DNA from: Pararcticibacter amylolyticus
GTDB lineage: Bacteria; Bacteroidota; Bacteroidia; Sphingobacteriales; Sphingobacteriaceae
DNA: 38,479 nucleotides
Assembly: GCF_003130405.1 (NCBI RefSeq)
Contig: NZ_QEAS01000001.1
Span: 405,281-443,759 of the forward strand
Reading direction: 5' to 3'
Within the stretch, counting starts at the first letter, position 1, and every line of letters starts with the position of its first letter. This document shows positions 11,063-19,098 of this stretch, in pieces. The translations under genes were made by a program, and so were the position numbers. The notes under the pieces are model-generated. The model did no database searches. It saw only the letters and a program-made list of their open reading frames with translations, and was not told the origin of the DNA.

Positions 11063-13213
11063 CTAGTACACCACCGTGAACTGCCCCGCTTGATTTAACT
11101 TGATGAAATCGGCCATTGTCTTAAGGCTCTCATCCTGAATAAAGTCGTTCTCCTCTTTAGGTTTCACTTCTCCCTTCTTTAACGGCGGCAAACCTCTCAG
11201 AGCTCTGCGCTGATTATCACGGACAAGATTTCTTGCTTCCTGCTCATCCCTTTCTTTCTTGAGCTGTGCTTCGTTGAGTGTAATAGTGCTTTCAGCTTCC
11301 CGTTTCTTAAATAAGTCGATATCCTCAAGCAGGAATTTATACTCAGAAGAGGCCTTCATTCTCTGCTCATGCTGCTTTACAAGCTCGGTCCTTACTGCGC
11401 TTAGATTAGCGACAGGAGTATATTTACTTGGTTTAATAGCATCAAAAGGCAAAGCTGAGGGCTCTGCACTTTCACCATATTTGTTTGCAGGGAATATCAT
11501 CGGAAACTGAATATCCGGAATAACTCCTTTATGCTGGGTACTGCTTCCATTAATTCTATAGAACTTCGCCATCGTCAGGTTGATCTGACCGAATTTGGGC
11601 AACTGCGTTGCAGATGCTTCTTCTTTATCGGAGCCCTTCATTTTGTTCAGGAACTCGTCTAATGTGGTGATCACCCTCGAAAGATCGATTGCAGACTGCA
11701 CTGTTCCTTTTCCATAAGTTTGCGTACCCATGATCACCCCCCTGTTGTAATCCTGTATTGCAGCAGCAAAGATCTCAGAAGCTGAAGCACTGAAACGGTC
11801 TACCATTACACCAAGCGGACCTGTCCAGGATATTGACGGATCATCATCATCATCTACTTCTGTACGGTTAGGATATCTAACCTGTACAACAGGACCTGTT
11901 TTAATGAAAAGACCCGTCAGCTCAATAGCTTCCATTAAAGAGCCTCCGCCATTAGCACGCAGGTCCATCACAATACCATCAACCTGCTGACGTTTGAGTG
12001 AATCTATTATCAGCCTTACATCCCTGGTTGTACTTTTATAATTCGGATCACCACTCTGATAGGCTTTAAAATCCATATAGAATGCAGGGACCTCGATGAC
12101 ACCGATCTTATATGTCTTTCCTCCTGAGGTTACCGTTTTGATCTTCTTTTTCGCTGACTGGTCTTCCAGGACTACTTTTTCGCGAACCAATGTAACGATC
12201 TTCGGCTGGGCAGACAGCTCCTGACCTGCAGGAATTATCTTCAACCTTACAGTTGTTCCACGTGGACCCTTTATCTTTTGAACAGTATTATCAAGTCTCC
12301 AGCCCCTCACATCAACGAACTCGCCATCGGCCCCCTGTGCAACTGCAATGATCTTATCGTTTACATTCAGTTTCTTTGATTTAAACGCAGGCCCTCCCGG
12401 AATAACCCCGGCTATCTTTACTACCTCATTTTCCAGTTGCAGGCTTGCACCTATACCCTCAAACGTCCTGGCCATATCTTCATTAAACCGCTGGGCATTT
12501 TCCGGATTGAAATAGTTCGTATGCGGATCAATAGATTCCGTGAATGCATCCATCATAATCTGAAACGCATCCTGGTTATTCAACTTTTTCGCCTGCGACA
12601 ACAGGTTCTGATAACGCTTCGTCAGGTTTTCTACATTTTTGACCTCTTCGGATCCTGATAAGCGAAGATTAAGCAGATCGTATTTTACTCTTTTGGTCCA
12701 TTCTTCATCAGCTTCCTTCTGAGACTTAAACCATGGAAGTTTCTCCCTGTTATATGAATAGGTCTCGTTCTTCGTGAAGTCAAATTTATTGCCTACCTGG
12801 GATAATGAATAACTTAAGCGCTCTTCATACCGCTTTTGAAAAACATTAAAGATTCGGAACAAGGTACTCAGGTCTCCCTTTCTGAGGTCATCGTCCATGG
12901 TGTTCCTGTACTTTTCAAATTCAGCGACATCGGGAGCAAGGAGATAATTGTGCCCCTCGTCTAATTGCTTAATATACCGGTCGAATATAACAGAGGAAAT
13001 TGAATCATCTATTTTGACCTTTTTAAAGTTTGCAGTCTCAATGATCTTCACTAACTCTGATGCAATCAGGCTCTGTTTGGCATCAGGCTGCAAATTATGC
13101 GTGCTGTCAACCACTGCTTCTACCCTCGGGTTGGCTTTACATGCAATTACTGCAACAATAAACAAAGCCAGAAATATTCTTTTAAGCATTTCTTTAAATG
13201 ATTTAAAATCCAT
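11063..13213 (-). CDS. Carboxy-terminal (tail-specific) S41 protease, lipoprotein
   Basis: This is a Prc-like C-terminal processing peptidase. An N-terminal helical domain is followed by a PDZ domain (about residues 245-335), the S41 protease domain (about 365-540) and a C-terminal extension typical of Prc. The catalytic serine is S477 in RFSASASEIFAAA and the general base is K502 in TYGKGTVQ, 25 residues apart as in E. coli Prc. The start of the protein carries a lipoprotein signal with a lipobox ending at C25 (AVIAC), so it should be anchored on the outer side of the inner membrane or on the outer membrane. MLKRIF (ATG at 13189) is an alternative start. Prc-type enzymes trim or degrade exported proteins and control peptidoglycan hydrolases. 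Confidence 0.95.
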   Translation of the reverse strand: MDFKSFKEMLKRIFLALFIVAVIACKANPRVEAVVDSTHNLQPDAKQSLIASELVKIIETANFKKVKIDDSISSVIFDRYIKQLDEGHNYLLAPDVAEFEKYRNTMDDDLRKGDLSTLFRIFNVFQKRYEERLSYSLSQVGNKFDFTKNETYSYNREKLPWFKSQKEADEEWTKRVKYDLLNLRLSGSEEVKNVENLTKRYQNLLSQAKKLNNQDAFQIMMDAFTESIDPHTNYFNPENAQRFNEDMARTFEGIGASLQLENEVVKIAGVIPGGPAFKSKKLNVNDKIIAVAQGADGEFVDVRGWRLDNTVQKIKGPRGTTVRLKIIPAGQELSAQPKIVTLVREKVVLEDQSAKKKIKTVTSGGKTYKIGVIEVPAFYMDFKAYQSGDPNYKSTTRDVRLIIDSLKRQQVDGIVMDLRANGGGSLMEAIELTGLFIKTGPVVQVRYPNRTEVDDDDDPSISWTGPLGVMVDRFSASASEIFAAAIQDYNRGVIMGTQTYGKGTVQSAIDLSRVITTLDEFLNKMKGSDKEEASATQLPKFGQINLTMAKFYRINGSSTQHKGVIPDIQFPMIFPANKYGESAEPSALPFDAIKPSKYTPVANLSAVRTELVKQHEQRMKASSEYKFLLEDIDLFKKREAESTITLNEAQLKKERDEQEARNLVRDNQRRALRGLPPLKKGEVKPKEENDFIQDESLKTMADFIKLNQAGQFTVVY

Positions 13214-13382: not shown

Positions 13383-14477
13383 CTATAGAGTCGCGCTTTT
13401 CAGTAAGTTTTCTCTTAAACGGCTGTATTCGTCGAGAACATTCCCTGCGGCAAGGTAATTTCCCATTTGGTTATATACCTCACCCACTTCAGCTTTTATC
13501 TCAATAAGCTTGAGGGGAAGATTATTTTTCACCGCCAGCATCTCCGCTTCCCGGTAATCGTCAAGAGCCATCTCAGGTTCTCCAAGAGCGTTTTTAACTT
13601 CTGCCAGGTGAATAAGACAAGATACTACTGCTTCCTTATTATCAAGCCTGGAAGCAAGTGCATGTCCCTGAATATAGAACCACTTTGCCTCCGACAGGCG
13701 TTTTTGTTTGTAATACAATCCAGCTAAAATCTGAAAACATTTTAACCTTCCGGGCTTGTTTCCTGTACGCGTGAACATGGGAAGTGCCTTTTTAAGCAAG
13801 CAGTACTCTGAGTCACTGTACTTATTCCCCAACATCTTATTCTCAGCCAGGCCAAGATATCCTTCTGCCGCCTGCGCAATCCTGTTTCCTGCTAAGTTTA
13901 GCCGGATAATATATTCTTTCTGAGCGGCAGCCTTTTCGTAATCACCGGCTATCCTGTATAGAGCAGATAAGTTTTCAGCAAGTTTGATCATGCCGGCCTT
14001 GTCTTTCAGTCGTTCCTGAAGGATGAGTGCCTCGCTGAAATACTGGATTGCCTTTGCATTCTCCCCTTTCTTCCCGTAATATACGCCATAAGTGTTCAGA
14101 ATAAGAGACTGCCCTTTAATATCCCTGCTTCGTTCATACTCCTCCAGAACGAGCCCGAGGGTACTCATTACTTTCTCATTAGGTTCCTCTGAAGTTTCAG
14201 TGTCATTAAGTAAGCTTCGTAAGAGAAGGATATTCTGGTATTCCGCCAGTTCCTTCACTTCTTTATTCTTCTTCTCCAGCCGTTCTTTTACCAGTAACTT
14301 CCTCAGTAACGCTGAATCCACAGGAGTAGCATCAAAATCCATCGGACCTATCTTAACCGGCCTGGTCTGGTCTTTAATCGCTAGTGAATCGGTTGTATTA
14401 GCAAAACTGGTTAGTCCCCCCAGCAAAAATACTGCTGTGAATAGTTTGTTTTTTAACCCCATGTTCTTTTCACTCAT
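13383..14477 (-). CDS. Exported TPR-repeat protein of unknown function
   Basis: Most of this 364-residue protein, from about residue 70 on, is made of TPR-like helical pairs (for instance NTYGVYYGKKGENAKAIQYFSEAL and NLSALYRIAGDYEKAAAQ segments), which serve as protein-binding scaffolds. Residues 7-28 form a signal peptide (KNKLFTAVFLLGGLTSFANT), so it is probably periplasmic. The repeat pattern is like the sensor part of Bacteroidota TPR-histidine kinases, but here no membrane anchor, kinase or DNA-binding domain follows. ATG at 14462 (MGLKNK) is a likely alternative start. It follows the isoaspartyl peptidase gene by 47 bases on the same strand, but a -7 box lies between them, so it can be expressed separately. 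Confidence 0.85.
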   Translation of the reverse strand: MSEKNMGLKNKLFTAVFLLGGLTSFANTTDSLAIKDQTRPVKIGPMDFDATPVDSALLRKLLVKERLEKKNKEVKELAEYQNILLLRSLLNDTETSEEPNEKVMSTLGLVLEEYERSRDIKGQSLILNTYGVYYGKKGENAKAIQYFSEALILQERLKDKAGMIKLAENLSALYRIAGDYEKAAAQKEYIIRLNLAGNRIAQAAEGYLGLAENKMLGNKYSDSEYCLLKKALPMFTRTGNKPGRLKCFQILAGLYYKQKRLSEAKWFYIQGHALASRLDNKEAVVSCLIHLAEVKNALGEPEMALDDYREAEMLAVKNNLPLKLIEIKAEVGEVYNQMGNYLAAGNVLDEYSRLRENLLKSATL

Positions 14478-14524: not shown

Positions 14525-15379
14525 TTATTTTTCGCCAAACACTTCTGCTTTTTCGTCATACAAAGCCCAGACCATGTAGGGATGAGAATCAAGGTGACAG
14601 ATCTCACCAGCAGACGAGATTGCTATTATGCCAGCAAAGCCATCTGATTCTTTAAGTTCACCCATTGTTTTTACTGCCGCCTCGTTTAGCGTCCCCCCGT
14701 CGGTAACGCGGGTTACAATCCTGGCAGCCAGGGCGATGTTTACAATATCTTCCCCTACTCCGGTACATGAAACAGCAGCGTGCTTGTTTGCATAGTTGCC
14801 TGCAACGGTCGCAGAATCACTTACTCTTCCCGGGATTTCAAATCCTTTGCCACCCGTGGATGTGGCAGCGGCCAATGCGCCTTCTTTATCCAGAGCTACG
14901 CATCCTACCGTTCCGGTACGGATTGAATCGCTTAGCTTTTTACTATACTCTTCCTTTCTTTGCTTCGTTTCAGGATTATAGTATCCAAACCCTTCTTTTC
15001 TGGCAAACTCCTGCGATTCAGGACCACTCAATACCCTGTCTTCAAACTCCATTAACCTTTTCGCAACATAAACAGGGTTCTTCACCTCCTCTATATTGAT
15101 GACCCCCGAAAACTTCAGAGCCTTTCCGTCCATAACAGAGGCGCTTAATCTGATCTTTCCATCGCTCTGGATCTGAGATCCCAATCCCGCATTAAAGAGG
15201 TCACAATCTTCAAGTAATGAAACGGCATAGGCTACGGTTTCTGTTGCATTGTGATCCTGTAAAAACTTATAGGCCTTTGTAACTACCGACCTAAGTGCGT
15301 CCTGCTTGGACTTTTTCACTTCCTCGCTGGAAGATGACTCGCTGAAAAAACCTCCGTGAATAATTATTTTTGGTTTCAT
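14525..15379 (-). CDS. iaaA: Isoaspartyl peptidase / L-asparaginase (Ntn hydrolase)
   Basis: This is a plant-type asparaginase/isoaspartyl dipeptidase that matures by self-cleavage before a threonine. The cleavage site is visible as RTG/TVGCVALD, with T157 as the new N-terminal nucleophile. The other family landmarks are the NAGLGS loop near residue 63, the SASVMDG segment near residue 79, GRVSDSATVAGNYA in place of the usual GRVGD loop, and CTGVGED. At 284 residues it is near the family length. Its ATG overlaps the end of the cyanophycinase gene by four bases, so the pair is translationally coupled. In this setting it should hydrolyse beta-aspartyl-arginine released from cyanophycin into aspartate and arginine; that substrate is inferred from context. 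Confidence 0.93.
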   Translation of the reverse strand: MKPKIIIHGGFFSESSSSEEVKKSKQDALRSVVTKAYKFLQDHNATETVAYAVSLLEDCDLFNAGLGSQIQSDGKIRLSASVMDGKALKFSGVINIEEVKNPVYVAKRLMEFEDRVLSGPESQEFARKEGFGYYNPETKQRKEEYSKKLSDSIRTGTVGCVALDKEGALAAATSTGGKGFEIPGRVSDSATVAGNYANKHAAVSCTGVGEDIVNIALAARIVTRVTDGGTLNEAAVKTMGELKESDGFAGIIAISSAGEICHLDSHPYMVWALYDEKAEVFGEK

Positions 15380-16299
15380 TCGTCTTCGTCTCTCGCTTTC
15401 AGGTAAACATCTTCTTCTACCTTGATTGCTTTGTTTATGATCAGTTGGTGCCTGTGAAGATCGTACTTATCAAAGATAGACATTACATGAACTTTAAGAT
15501 TATCTATTGATACCGGCGATCCGATCTCAACATCGTATATACTTGTTTCATTGATATAACGTCCGTCAACGAGAATTGTTAGGCCCGAGCCTATCGCTTC
15601 CATGCAATCTCCTCCTGTAATCAGCAATCCGGCATCTTCCCCCAAGCCTATCCCCAGCATACCCGGGTTGCTCGCTACCGCGTAAAACAGTCTTCCAATA
15701 CGTCCCCTTTGTACAAAATGAGTGTCGATCACAACATCGTCGATAAATCCCAGTCCGCCTGTTATCTGGACTTCTCCCTTTATCAGGGCTTCACTGCTGC
15801 TCCCTCTATAGATCATATTTGCCGAAGCAGCGGCAGCACCGGCAGAAGTCCCGGCAACAATAAAATCTTCGTTTTGATAACGTTCTTTAAGGATATTCAG
15901 GAATTGTGTTCCGCCAAAGATCGCACTTAACCGAAGCTGATCACCTCCCGAAAACATCACGACATCTGCTTTCTTTACACGATCGATTACCTCTGAGGCC
16001 GCAGCCGATTCCCTTGTACGGATGTCCAGTACGCCAACATTCGCTACCTGAAGCTGATTAAAAGATTTAATGTACTCAGATCCTACAATCTCGGGTATTT
16101 TTGAGGCTGTAGTAATTACTTCAATCACAGAATCTGCCCCTTTAGCAGACTCTGTGATCATCCGTTTCAAAATCCCTCTTTCAAAAAACTTTATATAATG
16201 GGGATGACTGATATTCTCATTGTAACTTAAAGAACTCCCGAGATCAACAGCTCCTCCTATAATAACCAGTTTTCCTTTTGGCCGCATATATCTTTTCAA
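15376..16299 (-). CDS. cphB: Cyanophycinase (S51 serine peptidase)
   Basis: The enzyme cuts the storage polymer cyanophycin (arginine-decorated polyaspartate) into beta-Asp-Arg dipeptides. The S51 nucleophile motif GTSAGAAAAS holds S152. Other family features are the start KGKLVIIGGAVD, the MFSGGDQLRL segment, DTHFVQRGRIGRL and GIGLGEDAGLLI. At 307 residues it is slightly longer than the cyanobacterial enzymes of about 270. No signal peptide is seen, so it acts in the cytoplasm. It is the first gene of a two-gene unit with iaaA and lies divergent from cphA, which makes polymer breakdown and synthesis neighbours sharing one control region. Confidence 0.95.
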   Translation of the reverse strand: MKRYMRPKGKLVIIGGAVDLGSSLSYNENISHPHYIKFFERGILKRMITESAKGADSVIEVITTASKIPEIVGSEYIKSFNQLQVANVGVLDIRTRESAAASEVIDRVKKADVVMFSGGDQLRLSAIFGGTQFLNILKERYQNEDFIVAGTSAGAAAASANMIYRGSSSEALIKGEVQITGGLGFIDDVVIDTHFVQRGRIGRLFYAVASNPGMLGIGLGEDAGLLITGGDCMEAIGSGLTILVDGRYINETSIYDVEIGSPVSIDNLKVHVMSIFDKYDLHRHQLIINKAIKVEEDVYLKARDEDE

Positions 16300-16310
16300 T
16301 TACCTAATAA

Positions 16311-16451
16311 TCCCAAACTATACCCTATAGTCCCAAACTTACCCAATTTTTTATTTATGTACGAAAAGCCAGGCTATAATTTATCCGGGCAAAAACTTTA
16401 TTTGAGCTGTTTGGTTAAATAGACCAAAGTTTATCATTATCCCAAAATACC
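16311..16451. promoter_or_regulatory. Divergent cphB/cphA control region with repeated motif
   Basis: TCCCAAACT occurs at 16311-16319 and again at 16331-16339, exactly 20 bases apart (two helical turns), each followed by an A/T-ACCC tract. A weaker copy, TCCCAAAATACC, begins at 16440 near the cphA start. The minus strand of the second copy reads TAAGTTTG (complement of 16334-16341), a -7 match for cphB. The spacing suggests a regulator dimer covering the cphB promoter; no regulator gene is adjacent. Confidence 0.45.
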
Positions 16452-16476
16452 TCAAAATTCAACCTGAAAAAATACC

Positions 16477-19098
16477 ATGAAGATACAAAGCATCCAGGTG
16501 CTTAAGGGGCCCAATATCTGGTCTGTAAGAAGAGAAAAGCTCATACAGATGCGTCTTGATCTGGAAGACCTGGAATACAAGCCGAGCAATGAGATTTCCG
16601 GTTTTAAATCACGGCTGGAAGCACTCATTCCCAGTCTCTATACCCACAGGTGTTCGAAAGGGCATGAAGGTGGTTTCCTGGAACGGGTGGAAGAAGGCAC
16701 CTGGATGGGACATATCATTGAACATATCGCCCTTGAAATCCAGACACTGGCAGGGATGGATGCTGGTTTTGGACGCACAAGAAGTACCAAAACGACAGGC
16801 GTTTATAATGTCGTGTTTATCTACCAGGAAGAGAGTGTCGGGATATACGCGGCTCATGCATCCCTTAGGATAGCAGAAGCTCTGATAGCTGGTGAGGACT
16901 ATGACCTTTCCACTGATATTAACAGGATGAGGGAGATGAGAGACAAGGAAAGCCTGGGACCGAGCACGCGGTCAATTGTGGATGAAGCGAAACTCAGAGA
17001 TATTCCTTACATCCGGCTTAACAGCGGATCTTTCATTCAGCTTGGTTTTGGCAAAAATCAGGTAAGATTCCGGGCTACTCTTACAGATAAAACAAGCAGC
17101 ATCGCAGTAGATATTGCCGGAGACAAGGAAGAAACAAAGCGTATTTTGAGGGAACAAGCTATACCTGTAGCGGAGGGCACAACCATTTCGAATGAGAAAC
17201 AAATGGCTGAAGCGATCAGAAAAATAGGGTTTCCGCTCGTTTTCAAGCCTTTAAATGGAAACCATGGAAAGGGTGCTTCCATCAATGTTAAAACTGAAGA
17301 AGAGGCAGCCGAAGCACTGAAACATGCTCAGAAGTACTCCCTGAAAGTAATTGTTGAACGCTTCGTTAAAGGTTTTGATTTCCGCATCCTGGTGATCAAC
17401 AACAAGATGGTAGCAGCAGCATTACGAACACCGGCTCATGTAAAGGGTGACGGCAAGCATACAATTGCCGAACTTATCGACCTGGAAAACGAGGACCCGC
17501 GCCGCGGGTACGGGCACGAAAATGTACTGACTGAGATACGGGTTGATCGTGACACTGAGGAAATGCTCCGTAAATATGGCTATACACTGCAAACCATCCC
17601 GGCAGAGAAAGAAGTCGTCTTCCTGAAGTCAACGGCAAACCTGAGTACCGGGGGCACTTCGCTCGATGTTACGGATATGGTACATCCCCATAACATCTTT
17701 GTCTGTGAAAGAATCGCACGGGTGGTTGGACTGGATATTTGCGGAATCGACATTATGGCTGAAAATCTCTCACAACCGCTTTATGAAACAGGTGGTGTAG
17801 TGCTCGAGGTAAATGCAGCACCGGGGTTCAGAATGCATCTTGCTCCGAGTGAAGGCCAACCCAGAAATGTTGCAGCCCCCGTTATTGATATGTTGTATCC
17901 TCCGGGGAAGTCTGCCAGGATTCCTATTATCGCTATAACGGGGACAAACGGAAAGACTACCACAACGCGGCTCATCGCCCATATTATAAAGAATAACGGT
18001 TATAGGGTCGGATACACTACTTCTGATGGAATTTACATCCAGAACTCTATGATGATAGAGGGTGATACTACCGGCCCTAATAGCGCAGCATTCGTTCTGA
18101 AAGACCCTACAGTTGAGTTTGCAGTCCTGGAAACAGCACGTGGCGGGATTTTAAGATCCGGCCTTGGTTTCAGCCGCTGCGATATTGCTATTTTAACCAA
18201 TATTCAGGAAGATCACCTGGGGATCTCAGATATTCATACCCTGGAAGATCTCACCTCCGTGAAAAAAGTAGTGATCGAATCGGTGAAAAAAGATGGATGG
18301 GCAATTTTGAACGCGGATAACCCCTATTGCGTAAAGATTGGCAAAGAAACCACTCACTGTAACATAGCCTATTTCAGCATGAATGAGGGTAATCCCGTCA
18401 TTGAAGAACATTGCAGCCGGGGCGGCGTCGCTGCTTTTATTGATGGCGGTTATCTCACTGTGAAAAAGGGTAACTGGAAGATCAGAATGGCGAAAGTTAC
18501 ACATGTGCCGATCACTTTTAACGGAACAGTAAGCTTTATGACTCAAAATGCCATGGCTGCTGCCCTCGCAACTTTCCTCTGGGGATTTAAGATTGAAGAT
18601 ATCCGGACTTCTCTTGAAACTTTTGTTCCTTCCCCTGCACATACTCCGGGCAGGATGAACATTTTCGATTTCAGGGATTATAAAATCCTGGTTGATTATG
18701 CTCATAACCCGGATGGGCTTAAGGGAATTAAAGACTTCATTCTCCAAAGCGATGCATCTTACAGAACAGGAGTTATTTCAGGGACCGGAGACCGGCGTGA
18801 CGATGATATCAGGGAAATAGGAAGAATTACGGCTTCTATGTTTGATAATATCGTGATCTGTCAGGAAAAATATCTCAGAGGCAGAGACTATGAACAGTTG
18901 GTAGGCTTGCTCAGAGAAGGTATTGAGGAAGTAAAACCAGGTATGCCATGCAAAGTTATCGGGAACGGAAAAGAGGCGTGGAATTACATTATTGAGCAGG
19001 TAAGACCGGGAGAATTAATTACAATTATCAGTGATGCTATCAACAACGCCTATGAGACTGTTAAGAAGCACCAGGACAAAGTGATGGCTAATAAATAA
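16477..19098 (+). CDS. cphA: Cyanophycin synthetase
   Basis: CphA polymerises aspartate and adds arginine to each side chain, using ATP. Three regions are seen. The N-terminal domain (about 1-160) contains HIIEHIALEIQ (from H79), the segment that in studied CphA1 enzymes includes a metal-dependent primer-making site. The ATP-grasp domain (about 200-470) has the glycine-rich KPLNGNHGKGA near residue 255. The Mur-ligase-like domain has the P-loop GTNGKTTT near residue 488 and DYAHNPDG at 740-747. The 873 residues fit the family. It begins with ATG and ends before a strong terminator. It is divergent from cphB-iaaA, so the window holds a full synthesis and recovery cycle for nitrogen storage. 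CphA2, which works with dipeptides, is less likely because the full-length active P-loop is intact. Confidence 0.96.
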   Translation: MKIQSIQVLKGPNIWSVRREKLIQMRLDLEDLEYKPSNEISGFKSRLEALIPSLYTHRCSKGHEGGFLERVEEGTWMGHIIEHIALEIQTLAGMDAGFGRTRSTKTTGVYNVVFIYQEESVGIYAAHASLRIAEALIAGEDYDLSTDINRMREMRDKESLGPSTRSIVDEAKLRDIPYIRLNSGSFIQLGFGKNQVRFRATLTDKTSSIAVDIAGDKEETKRILREQAIPVAEGTTISNEKQMAEAIRKIGFPLVFKPLNGNHGKGASINVKTEEEAAEALKHAQKYSLKVIVERFVKGFDFRILVINNKMVAAALRTPAHVKGDGKHTIAELIDLENEDPRRGYGHENVLTEIRVDRDTEEMLRKYGYTLQTIPAEKEVVFLKSTANLSTGGTSLDVTDMVHPHNIFVCERIARVVGLDICGIDIMAENLSQPLYETGGVVLEVNAAPGFRMHLAPSEGQPRNVAAPVIDMLYPPGKSARIPIIAITGTNGKTTTTRLIAHIIKNNGYRVGYTTSDGIYIQNSMMIEGDTTGPNSAAFVLKDPTVEFAVLETARGGILRSGLGFSRCDIAILTNIQEDHLGISDIHTLEDLTSVKKVVIESVKKDGWAILNADNPYCVKIGKETTHCNIAYFSMNEGNPVIEEHCSRGGVAAFIDGGYLTVKKGNWKIRMAKVTHVPITFNGTVSFMTQNAMAAALATFLWGFKIEDIRTSLETFVPSPAHTPGRMNIFDFRDYKILVDYAHNPDGLKGIKDFILQSDASYRTGVISGTGDRRDDDIREIGRITASMFDNIVICQEKYLRGRDYEQLVGLLREGIEEVKPGMPCKVIGNGKEAWNYIIEQVRPGELITIISDAINNAYETVKKHQDKVMANK

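Follow-up and report, generated by a model that had tools for sequence, protein, structure and literature searches.

A cyanophycin gene module of Pararcticibacter amylolyticus and a distinct, cphB-linked clade of short IaaA-family proteins

Results

Organization of the cyanophycin locus

This report concerns three adjacent cyanophycin genes of Pararcticibacter amylolyticus (Bacteroidota; Bacteroidia; Sphingobacteriaceae), which lie in a stretch of 38,479 nucleotides (RefSeq assembly GCF_003130405.1, contig NZ_QEAS01000001.1, positions 405,281 to 443,759 of the forward strand), hereafter called the window. The plus strand carries cphA (16477..19098), which encodes an 873-residue cyanophycin synthetase of the CphA1 type, identified with TIGR02068, PF18921, and PF08245, an alignment with PDB 7lg5, and the motif Cx19HxxEH. 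The minus strand carries cphB (15376..16299), for a 307-residue cyanophycinase of the intracellular type (peptidase family S51; TIGR02069 and alignment with 3en0 and 7uqv), and an iaaA-like gene (14525..15379), for a short, signal-less Asparaginase_2 protein of 284 residues, an N-terminal nucleophile (Ntn) hydrolase assigned by PF01112, tree position, linkage, and residues. This protein and its relatives are referred to below as short forms. By the coordinates of the open reading frames (ORFs), the stop codon of cphB and the start codon of iaaA overlap by 4 bp (ATGA, 15376..15379, minus strand), and translational coupling of the two genes is likely. The cphB start given by the ORF tool is TTG, and an in-frame ATG follows four codons further on. 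The divergent genes cphA and cphB are separated by 177 bp (16300..16476), where promoters for both directions are expected. The sequence-only reading of this DNA had described an intact cphA divergent from overlapping cphB and iaaA genes, and the coordinates, the 4-bp overlap, and the profile scores bear this out; it overlooked what is distinctive at this locus, the membership of the third gene in a separate IaaA-family clade that is linked to cyanophycin genes.

We consider it quite probable that these genes together make up a cytosolic module for the storage of cyanophycin, in which the third protein would be the beta-Asp-Arg dipeptidase of the pathway; this judgment applies to the pathway role and not to substrate specificity. 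By homology, CphA would join Asp and Arg with ATP to give (beta-Asp-Arg)n, on primers that it would make itself, and CphB would cut the chain into beta-Asp-Arg dipeptides. The residues, fold, and linkage of the short Ntn-hydrolase suggest that it would cleave itself before Thr157 and split beta-Asp-Arg into Asp and Arg. The earlier assignment of the genes to polymerization, depolymerization, and dipeptide cleavage is supported by these comparisons. From the sequences, we infer the activity of the third protein on beta-Asp-Arg, its dedication to the pathway, and its coupled expression; specificity for Arg or Lys is a hypothesis.

The short IaaA-type protein and its clade

The third protein of the window scored 265 bits against PF01112 (Asparaginase_2; cut-off, 27) and only 140 bits against NF007589, the curated beta-aspartyl-peptidase equivalog, whose cut-off of 567 bits it did not reach; it is therefore a divergent member of the family and no textbook IaaA. 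The same equivalog was missed by two other short forms (118 and 137 bits) and by one long linked form (346 bits). Short forms are about 280 residues long and have no signal. The identity to Escherichia coli IaaA (EcIaaA, or EcAIII) was 34–40% for 110 short forms (36.8% for the window protein), with a median of 51% for the other 33 family rows, in which E. coli's own is included. A search profile built from 16 short forms (A1) gave a sharp split in a phylum sample of 395 Bacteroidota genomes: 26 genomes scored ≥ 448 bits, and the next match scored 177.

In a tree of 76 rows, which took in 44 of the 110 short forms and from which one partial row (L076) was dropped, all 44 formed a single clade on a long stem (support, 100/100). 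A second cyanophycin-linked clade, made up of 11 longer IaaA proteins (support, 96/85), stood apart from the short clade, which was also separate from 21 unlinked rows, i.e., E. coli IaaA and 20 Bacteroidota rows hand-picked among the matches listed.

Residues T157, T175, T206, R185, D188, and G207 of the window protein align with EcIaaA T179, T197, T230, R207, D210, and G231. With the PF01112 match, the Thr nucleophile, and the substrate Arg/Asp pair in place, the protein would count as a member of the IaaA/class-2 L-asparaginase group, and autocleavage before Thr157 is expected. EcIaaA positions T179, T197, T230, R207, D210, G231, G233, and E234 are invariant in all 44 short rows. The gate segment (EcIaaA 200–203, numbered from one MAFFT alignment) reads MTNK in E. 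coli, whereas all 44 short rows have KGFE; Lys occupies the EcAIII-200 position in each of these and in none of the 32 other rows, which all keep K203. Around the gate, the short rows have G209 replaced by S, T232 by V (43/44), V235 by D, P118 by D, and H119 mostly by R (36/44). An AlphaFold model of the window protein had a predicted local distance difference test (pLDDT) score of 76.6 and a predicted template modeling score of 0.83, and the top Foldseek matches of the predicted fold were class-2 asparaginases and isoaspartyl peptidases (template modeling score about 0.8, root-mean-square deviation about 5 Å).

Linkage of the short form with cyanophycin genes

Among 80 named short-form loci, the fetched stretch contained cphB in 79, and 69 of the 80 also held cphA. 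In 78 loci, cphB lay ≤ 724 bp from the short iaaA on the same strand; in L150, the exception, it lay about 3.9 kb away on the opposite strand, and the 80th named locus, L141, begins 545 bp away from the end of its contig. When both locus sets were taken together, some loci of which stem from one genome (e.g., L091 and L110), cphB and the short iaaA were on the same strand in 104 of the 105 loci holding both; the gap in these 104 ranged from −50 to 724 bp (median, 58), and 20 pairs overlapped. One CphA-positive genome (G262) has the cphB–iaaA pair and cphA on different contigs, so the separation of cphA from the pair does occur.

Short-form genomes were also CphA-positive in 23 of 26 cases in the phylum sample (46/395 overall; Fisher test, 1.7e-21) and in 29 of 29 cases in a sample of 395 genomes of the window's class (162/395 overall; 1.2e-12). 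These values are uncorrected for relatedness, the overlaps were matched by eye, and the two samples share genomes and hence are not independent. Five CphA-positive genomes (G022, G073, G262, G336, and G380) have the short form as their sole PF01112 match and have no IadA match (E ≤ 1e-20). The three CphA-negative short-form genomes (L174, L175, and L176) all belong to one family (f13): a cyanophycinase over the cut-off lies next door in L176 (159 bits), L174 has, about 5 kb away, an S51 protein tagged for type IX secretion (103 bits vs. the cut-off of 126.6), and L175, near a contig end, has a DcuC-family carrier nearest YfcC (370 bits, below the cut-off of 500). The short IaaA genes of these loci lie near RpiR regulators, DcuC-family carriers, or S51 proteins, and the loci look like scavenging loci; an MR/MLE-type enzyme near the short iaaA of L174 leaves room for cell-wall recycling.

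Two further kinds of locus were observed. A tandem pair of cphB genes followed by a short iaaA is present at L164:212-2102, and cyanophycin loci with a short iaaA, of the Bacteroidota kind, occur in records labelled Candidatus Nitrotoga (L161) and Bifidobacterium breve (L171), the contigs of which are probably wrongly binned.

Export signals and a second gene set in the same genome

Signal peptides were judged by visual inspection and by hydropathy over 11 residues rather than by a trained predictor. By the hydropathy window, a hydrophobic N-terminus was present in 16 of the 21 unlinked rows, none of the 11 long linked forms, and one of the 44 short forms, namely L100, whose ORF had been called from a start further upstream. 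The five unlinked rows below the line include E. coli IaaA and one row from Bacteroidota whose start is uncertain; the other three come from CphA-positive genomes in which no PF01112 gene is linked. In P. amylolyticus, no export signal was seen by eye in the CphB or IaaA of the window, and the other two PF01112 proteins of the genome begin with export signals, likewise by eye. The genome had no match to IadA (TIGR01975), which matches 6 of the 46 CphA-positive phylum-sample genomes, and none to PF04952, for which the E. coli control was positive. PF04952 should detect CphZ, an M14/AstE-like cyanophycin dipeptide hydrolase. An IadA or AstE-like enzyme was accordingly rejected as the one completing the pathway in P. 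amylolyticus; because the other PF01112 proteins carry export signals by eye and IadA and PF04952 matches are absent, the searched families offer no cytosolic candidate other than the window protein.

Contig C106 of the same genome (L266:5277-8254) carries two genes of the S51/cyanophycinase family that flank an exported canonical IaaA: one encodes an S51 protein of 349 residues (81.9 bits, under the TIGR02069 cut-off), and the opposed one a cyanophycinase-family protein over the cut-off (160.7 bits) with an export signal by eye. We infer that this set may be an envelope scavenging module, apart from the storage module of the window. A further cyanophycinase over the cut-off (191.7 bits) is located on contig C12 (L267:6364-7260), without cphA or iaaA beside it.

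We regard it as very unlikely that the module of the window scavenges external cyanophycin rather than storing it. Scavenging loci without cphA have been described (PMC10206079), and the three short-form genomes without CphA over the cut-off carry carrier or secreted S51 genes. The cphA of the window, however, is intact, divergent from cphB, and has all three active sites, and the separate exported set (S51, IaaA, S51) suits scavenging better than CphB and IaaA proteins without export signals. On the more tentative reading of a dedicated dipeptidase given in the Discussion, the genome would run this second, exported degrading set alongside the storage module, each process having a compartment of its own.

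Cyanophycin synthetase and cyanophycinase of the window

CphA of the window scored 1261 bits against TIGR02068 (cut-off, 850; residues 2–865) and has the full-length architecture of an N domain, an ATP-grasp domain, and a Mur-ligase domain, over the curated cut-off (Pfam PF18921 and PF08245). The closest solved structure is PDB 7lg5 (945 bits; near full-length alignment, 1–864), which we take to be Synechocystis SuCphA1. The primer-cutting site of the N domain, Cx19HxxEH, is present as C59/H79/E82/H83, and the G and M sites are kept as H263, D579/H580, and the Mur P-loop K493 (SuCphA1 H267 and D585/H586), which places the protein with CphA1, unlike the one-site CphA2. When CphA rows were aligned, with the window counted twice, H263 was kept in 173 of 180, D579/H580 in 179 of 180, and K493 in 180 of 180; Cx19HxxEH was complete in 175 of 179 rows, missing in three, and one row was truncated. 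A 2022 study tied this motif to primer-independent synthesis (PMC9262961), and because the N-domain Zn-peptidase motif of primer-independent CphA1 is present, the CphA of the window should make its own primers.

That this CphA makes another poly-isopeptide, e.g., with Lys, to which the short hydrolase is tuned, would fit the clade-wide gate-loop substitutions and the incorporation of Lys by some CphA1 (PMC10206079); given the near full-length alignment with solved cyanophycin synthases, we give this very little credence.

CphB of the window scored 213.5 bits against TIGR02069 (cut-off, 126.6), and the Ser, His, and Glu positions of cyanophycinases 3en0 and 7uqv, which we take to have catalytic-triad roles, are kept in the alignment. 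The earlier statement that the catalytic motifs are intact therefore holds for the residues checked in CphA, CphB, and IaaA.

Several CphA variants were observed at other loci. The G-domain His (SuCphA1 H267) is Gln in seven CphA of other lineages (L072, L074, L075, L076, L077, L079, and L088), all of which come from loci with a long linked IaaA. In three CphA of family f9 (L084, L085, and L086), the N-domain site for primer cutting is without its Cys and Glu, and cphB was not found in the stretches fetched for these loci; these CphA may be primer-dependent or otherwise employed. Additionally, a protein of 561–636 residues that has only the CphA-type Mur-ligase part, with both the P-loop and the DH motif preserved, is encoded at L080, L081, L082, and L087, each time in tandem with a full-length, intact CphA.

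Distribution of cyanophycin genes in Bacteroidota

CphA over the cut-off was detected in 46 of the 395 genomes of the phylum sample and in five of the six genomes of the window's genus, its own included. In the class sample, 162 of 395 genomes were CphA-positive (E ≤ 1e-200), 156 of them over the cut-off. These counts rule out rarity of the module in Bacteroidota. A previous survey reported CphA1 in 86 complete Bacteroidota genomes, all with cyanophycinase (Sharon and Schmeing, 2023; PMC10206079), so the cphA–cphB combination is ordinary in this phylum. A paper describing a Dyadobacter lists the whole set of three for one strain (PMC11573002). For Flavobacterium sp. TH167, a genome note reports both a synthase gene and granules of cyanophycin seen in the electron microscope (PMC5887021). 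In addition, cphA is co-expressed with proteases in the transcriptome of Flavobacterium psychrophilum (PMC9723704), and a cphA-bearing Flavobacteriales genus is known from activated sludge (PMC10687191). Among the open-licence papers on cyanophycin that our searches brought up, we saw no assay of a cyanophycin enzyme from Bacteroidota. The earlier remark that cyanophycin is little described in this phylum thus stands for enzyme work, stands only in part for granules, and fails for genes: the presence of cphA and cphB in Bacteroidota is already known, and granules are reported in one Flavobacterium.

Neighbouring genes

A TPR protein gene identified by a Pfam match (13383..14477, minus strand) lies 3' of iaaA, as it does in several relatives. 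A gene for a tail-specific (S41) protease follows (11063..13213, minus strand; profile matches); this frequent neighbour, found in the fetched stretch of 37 of the 80 named short-form loci, is probably outside the cyanophycin pathway. Genes for TetR, TolC, HlyD, and an MFS pump lie on the other flank. The pump genes and the downstream TPR and protease genes look unrelated to the pathway.

Discussion

Specificity of the short clade

Beyond the pathway role, we propose tentatively, and as somewhat closer to doubtful than to probable, that the short clade is a dedicated, cytosolic beta-Asp-Arg/Lys-specific dipeptidase, in which an IaaA scaffold would have a rebuilt gate loop (MTNK to KGFE). A general isoaspartyl peptidase/L-asparaginase for damaged proteins, serving both uses as RhIaaA appears to do, is a serious possibility, which we nonetheless hold to be less than probable; it is compatible with the pathway role of the third protein and denies only its dedication. 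The family and catalytic residues are common to IaaA, and RhIaaA and LmIadA, two assayed enzymes from cyanophycin clusters, are promiscuous (PMC10206079). Janicki et al. (2023; PMC10204187), who described Met200 as a gate, modelled L-Asn binding in “M200K” orthologs from Mucilaginibacter gossypiicola, a Pedobacter, Myroides guanonis, a Microcystis, and a Chloroflexota; the “Lys200” orthologs of Mucilaginibacter, Pedobacter, and Myroides are thereby modelled as L-asparaginases. In the same simulations, however, L-Asn diffused out of the Pedobacter site, which argues against a general enzyme. So do the gate loop and flanking positions, which in the short clade differ invariantly from the other rows, and the distribution: short-form genomes are nearly all CphA-positive, and other family members are held by at least 195 CphA-negative phylum-sample genomes (E ≤ 1e-20; 244 genomes matched, 46 of them CphA-positive).

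Several observations weigh against the proposed role of the short form as the cyanophycin dipeptidase. First, the promiscuity of RhIaaA and LmIadA means that linkage does not prove specificity. Second, the gate loop of the AlphaFold model has a pLDDT < 50, so a structural claim on Arg binding cannot be made, and that argument was dropped. Third, 10 of the 80 named loci held cphB but no cphA in the fetched stretch, the rest of those genomes not having been searched; nine of the 10 stretches cover 4.5–7.1 kb upstream of cphB, and one covers only 211 bp. Fourth, only half of the CphA-positive genomes of the phylum sample (23/46) and a smaller share of those of the class sample (29/162) had the short form. 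In the 46 genomes, all of which have a PF01112 match of some kind, 23 had a short IaaA beside cphB; 12 had a long IaaA close to cphB, one of these being incomplete and at the end of its contig; six had IadA (three beside cphB); and five had none of the three. For the class sample, 60 neighbourhoods were hand-chosen from the 133 CphA-positive, short-negative genomes (≤ 5 per family): a long IaaA lay within the fetched stretch in 21, and in 39 no linked IaaA or IadA was found, 16 of these 39 also being without cphB. Occurrence of the short form in all Bacteroidota is ruled out by these 60 loci. A recurrent alternative dipeptidase beside cphA or cphB was not found either: when 270 neighbour ORFs of 45 loci that had no linked dipeptidase were clustered, no family occurred in more than four loci.

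According to the survey of Sharon and Schmeing, just 22.1% of the 86 Bacteroidota genomes had IaaA or IadA, and isoaspartyl dipeptidases “remain undiscovered” in Firmicutes and Bacteroidota (PMC10206079). The short clade closes this gap only in part; as far as the sequences indicate, its role as a lineage-specific solution would be confined to a portion of the phylum, for which it is a concrete, assay-ready candidate. If the dedicated dipeptidase is real, it would supply the final, so far missing reaction of cyanophycin degradation for Sphingobacteriaceae, Weeksellaceae, and some Flavobacterium. The clade may reclassify proteins that are now modelled as L-asparaginases, and it offers a clean test of whether the IaaA scaffold can turn Arg-specific. 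We know of no earlier specific enzyme of the IaaA family, and the short clade, if specific, would be the first.

Comparison with known systems

Compared with the CphA1 of 7lg5, the CphA of the window aligns over nearly its full length and conserves the N, G, and M active sites, including Cx19HxxEH; the host phylum differs, and no functional difference was detected in the sequence comparison. CphB of the window shares the conserved Ser/His/Glu with 7uqv and 3en0 (peptidase S51), is signal-less by eye, and has a C-terminus about 20 residues past the stretch aligned with them, and is otherwise unremarkable. E. coli IaaA and the operon-borne IaaA of R. halodurans, which we take to be PDB 8dqm, have in common with the short form the Ntn-hydrolase fold, the catalytic Thr residues, and the equivalents of R207 and D210; the Thr nucleophile is at 157 in the window protein vs. 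179 in EcIaaA, and the linker of the window protein is shorter. CphZ, cited in PMC10206079, would fill the same pathway step as the short form but belongs to an unrelated family. The “M200K” class-2 L-asparaginases of Janicki et al. have Lys at 200 and host genera in common with the short clade, to which the three Bacteroidota orthologs probably belong. The two groups differ in the compensating changes, T232D, P118E, and H119D in that study vs. V, D, and mostly R in the short clade. The study models L-Asn binding, and gene neighbourhood is absent from the portion of its account available (PMC10204187); in the short clade, the neighbourhood points to cyanophycin.

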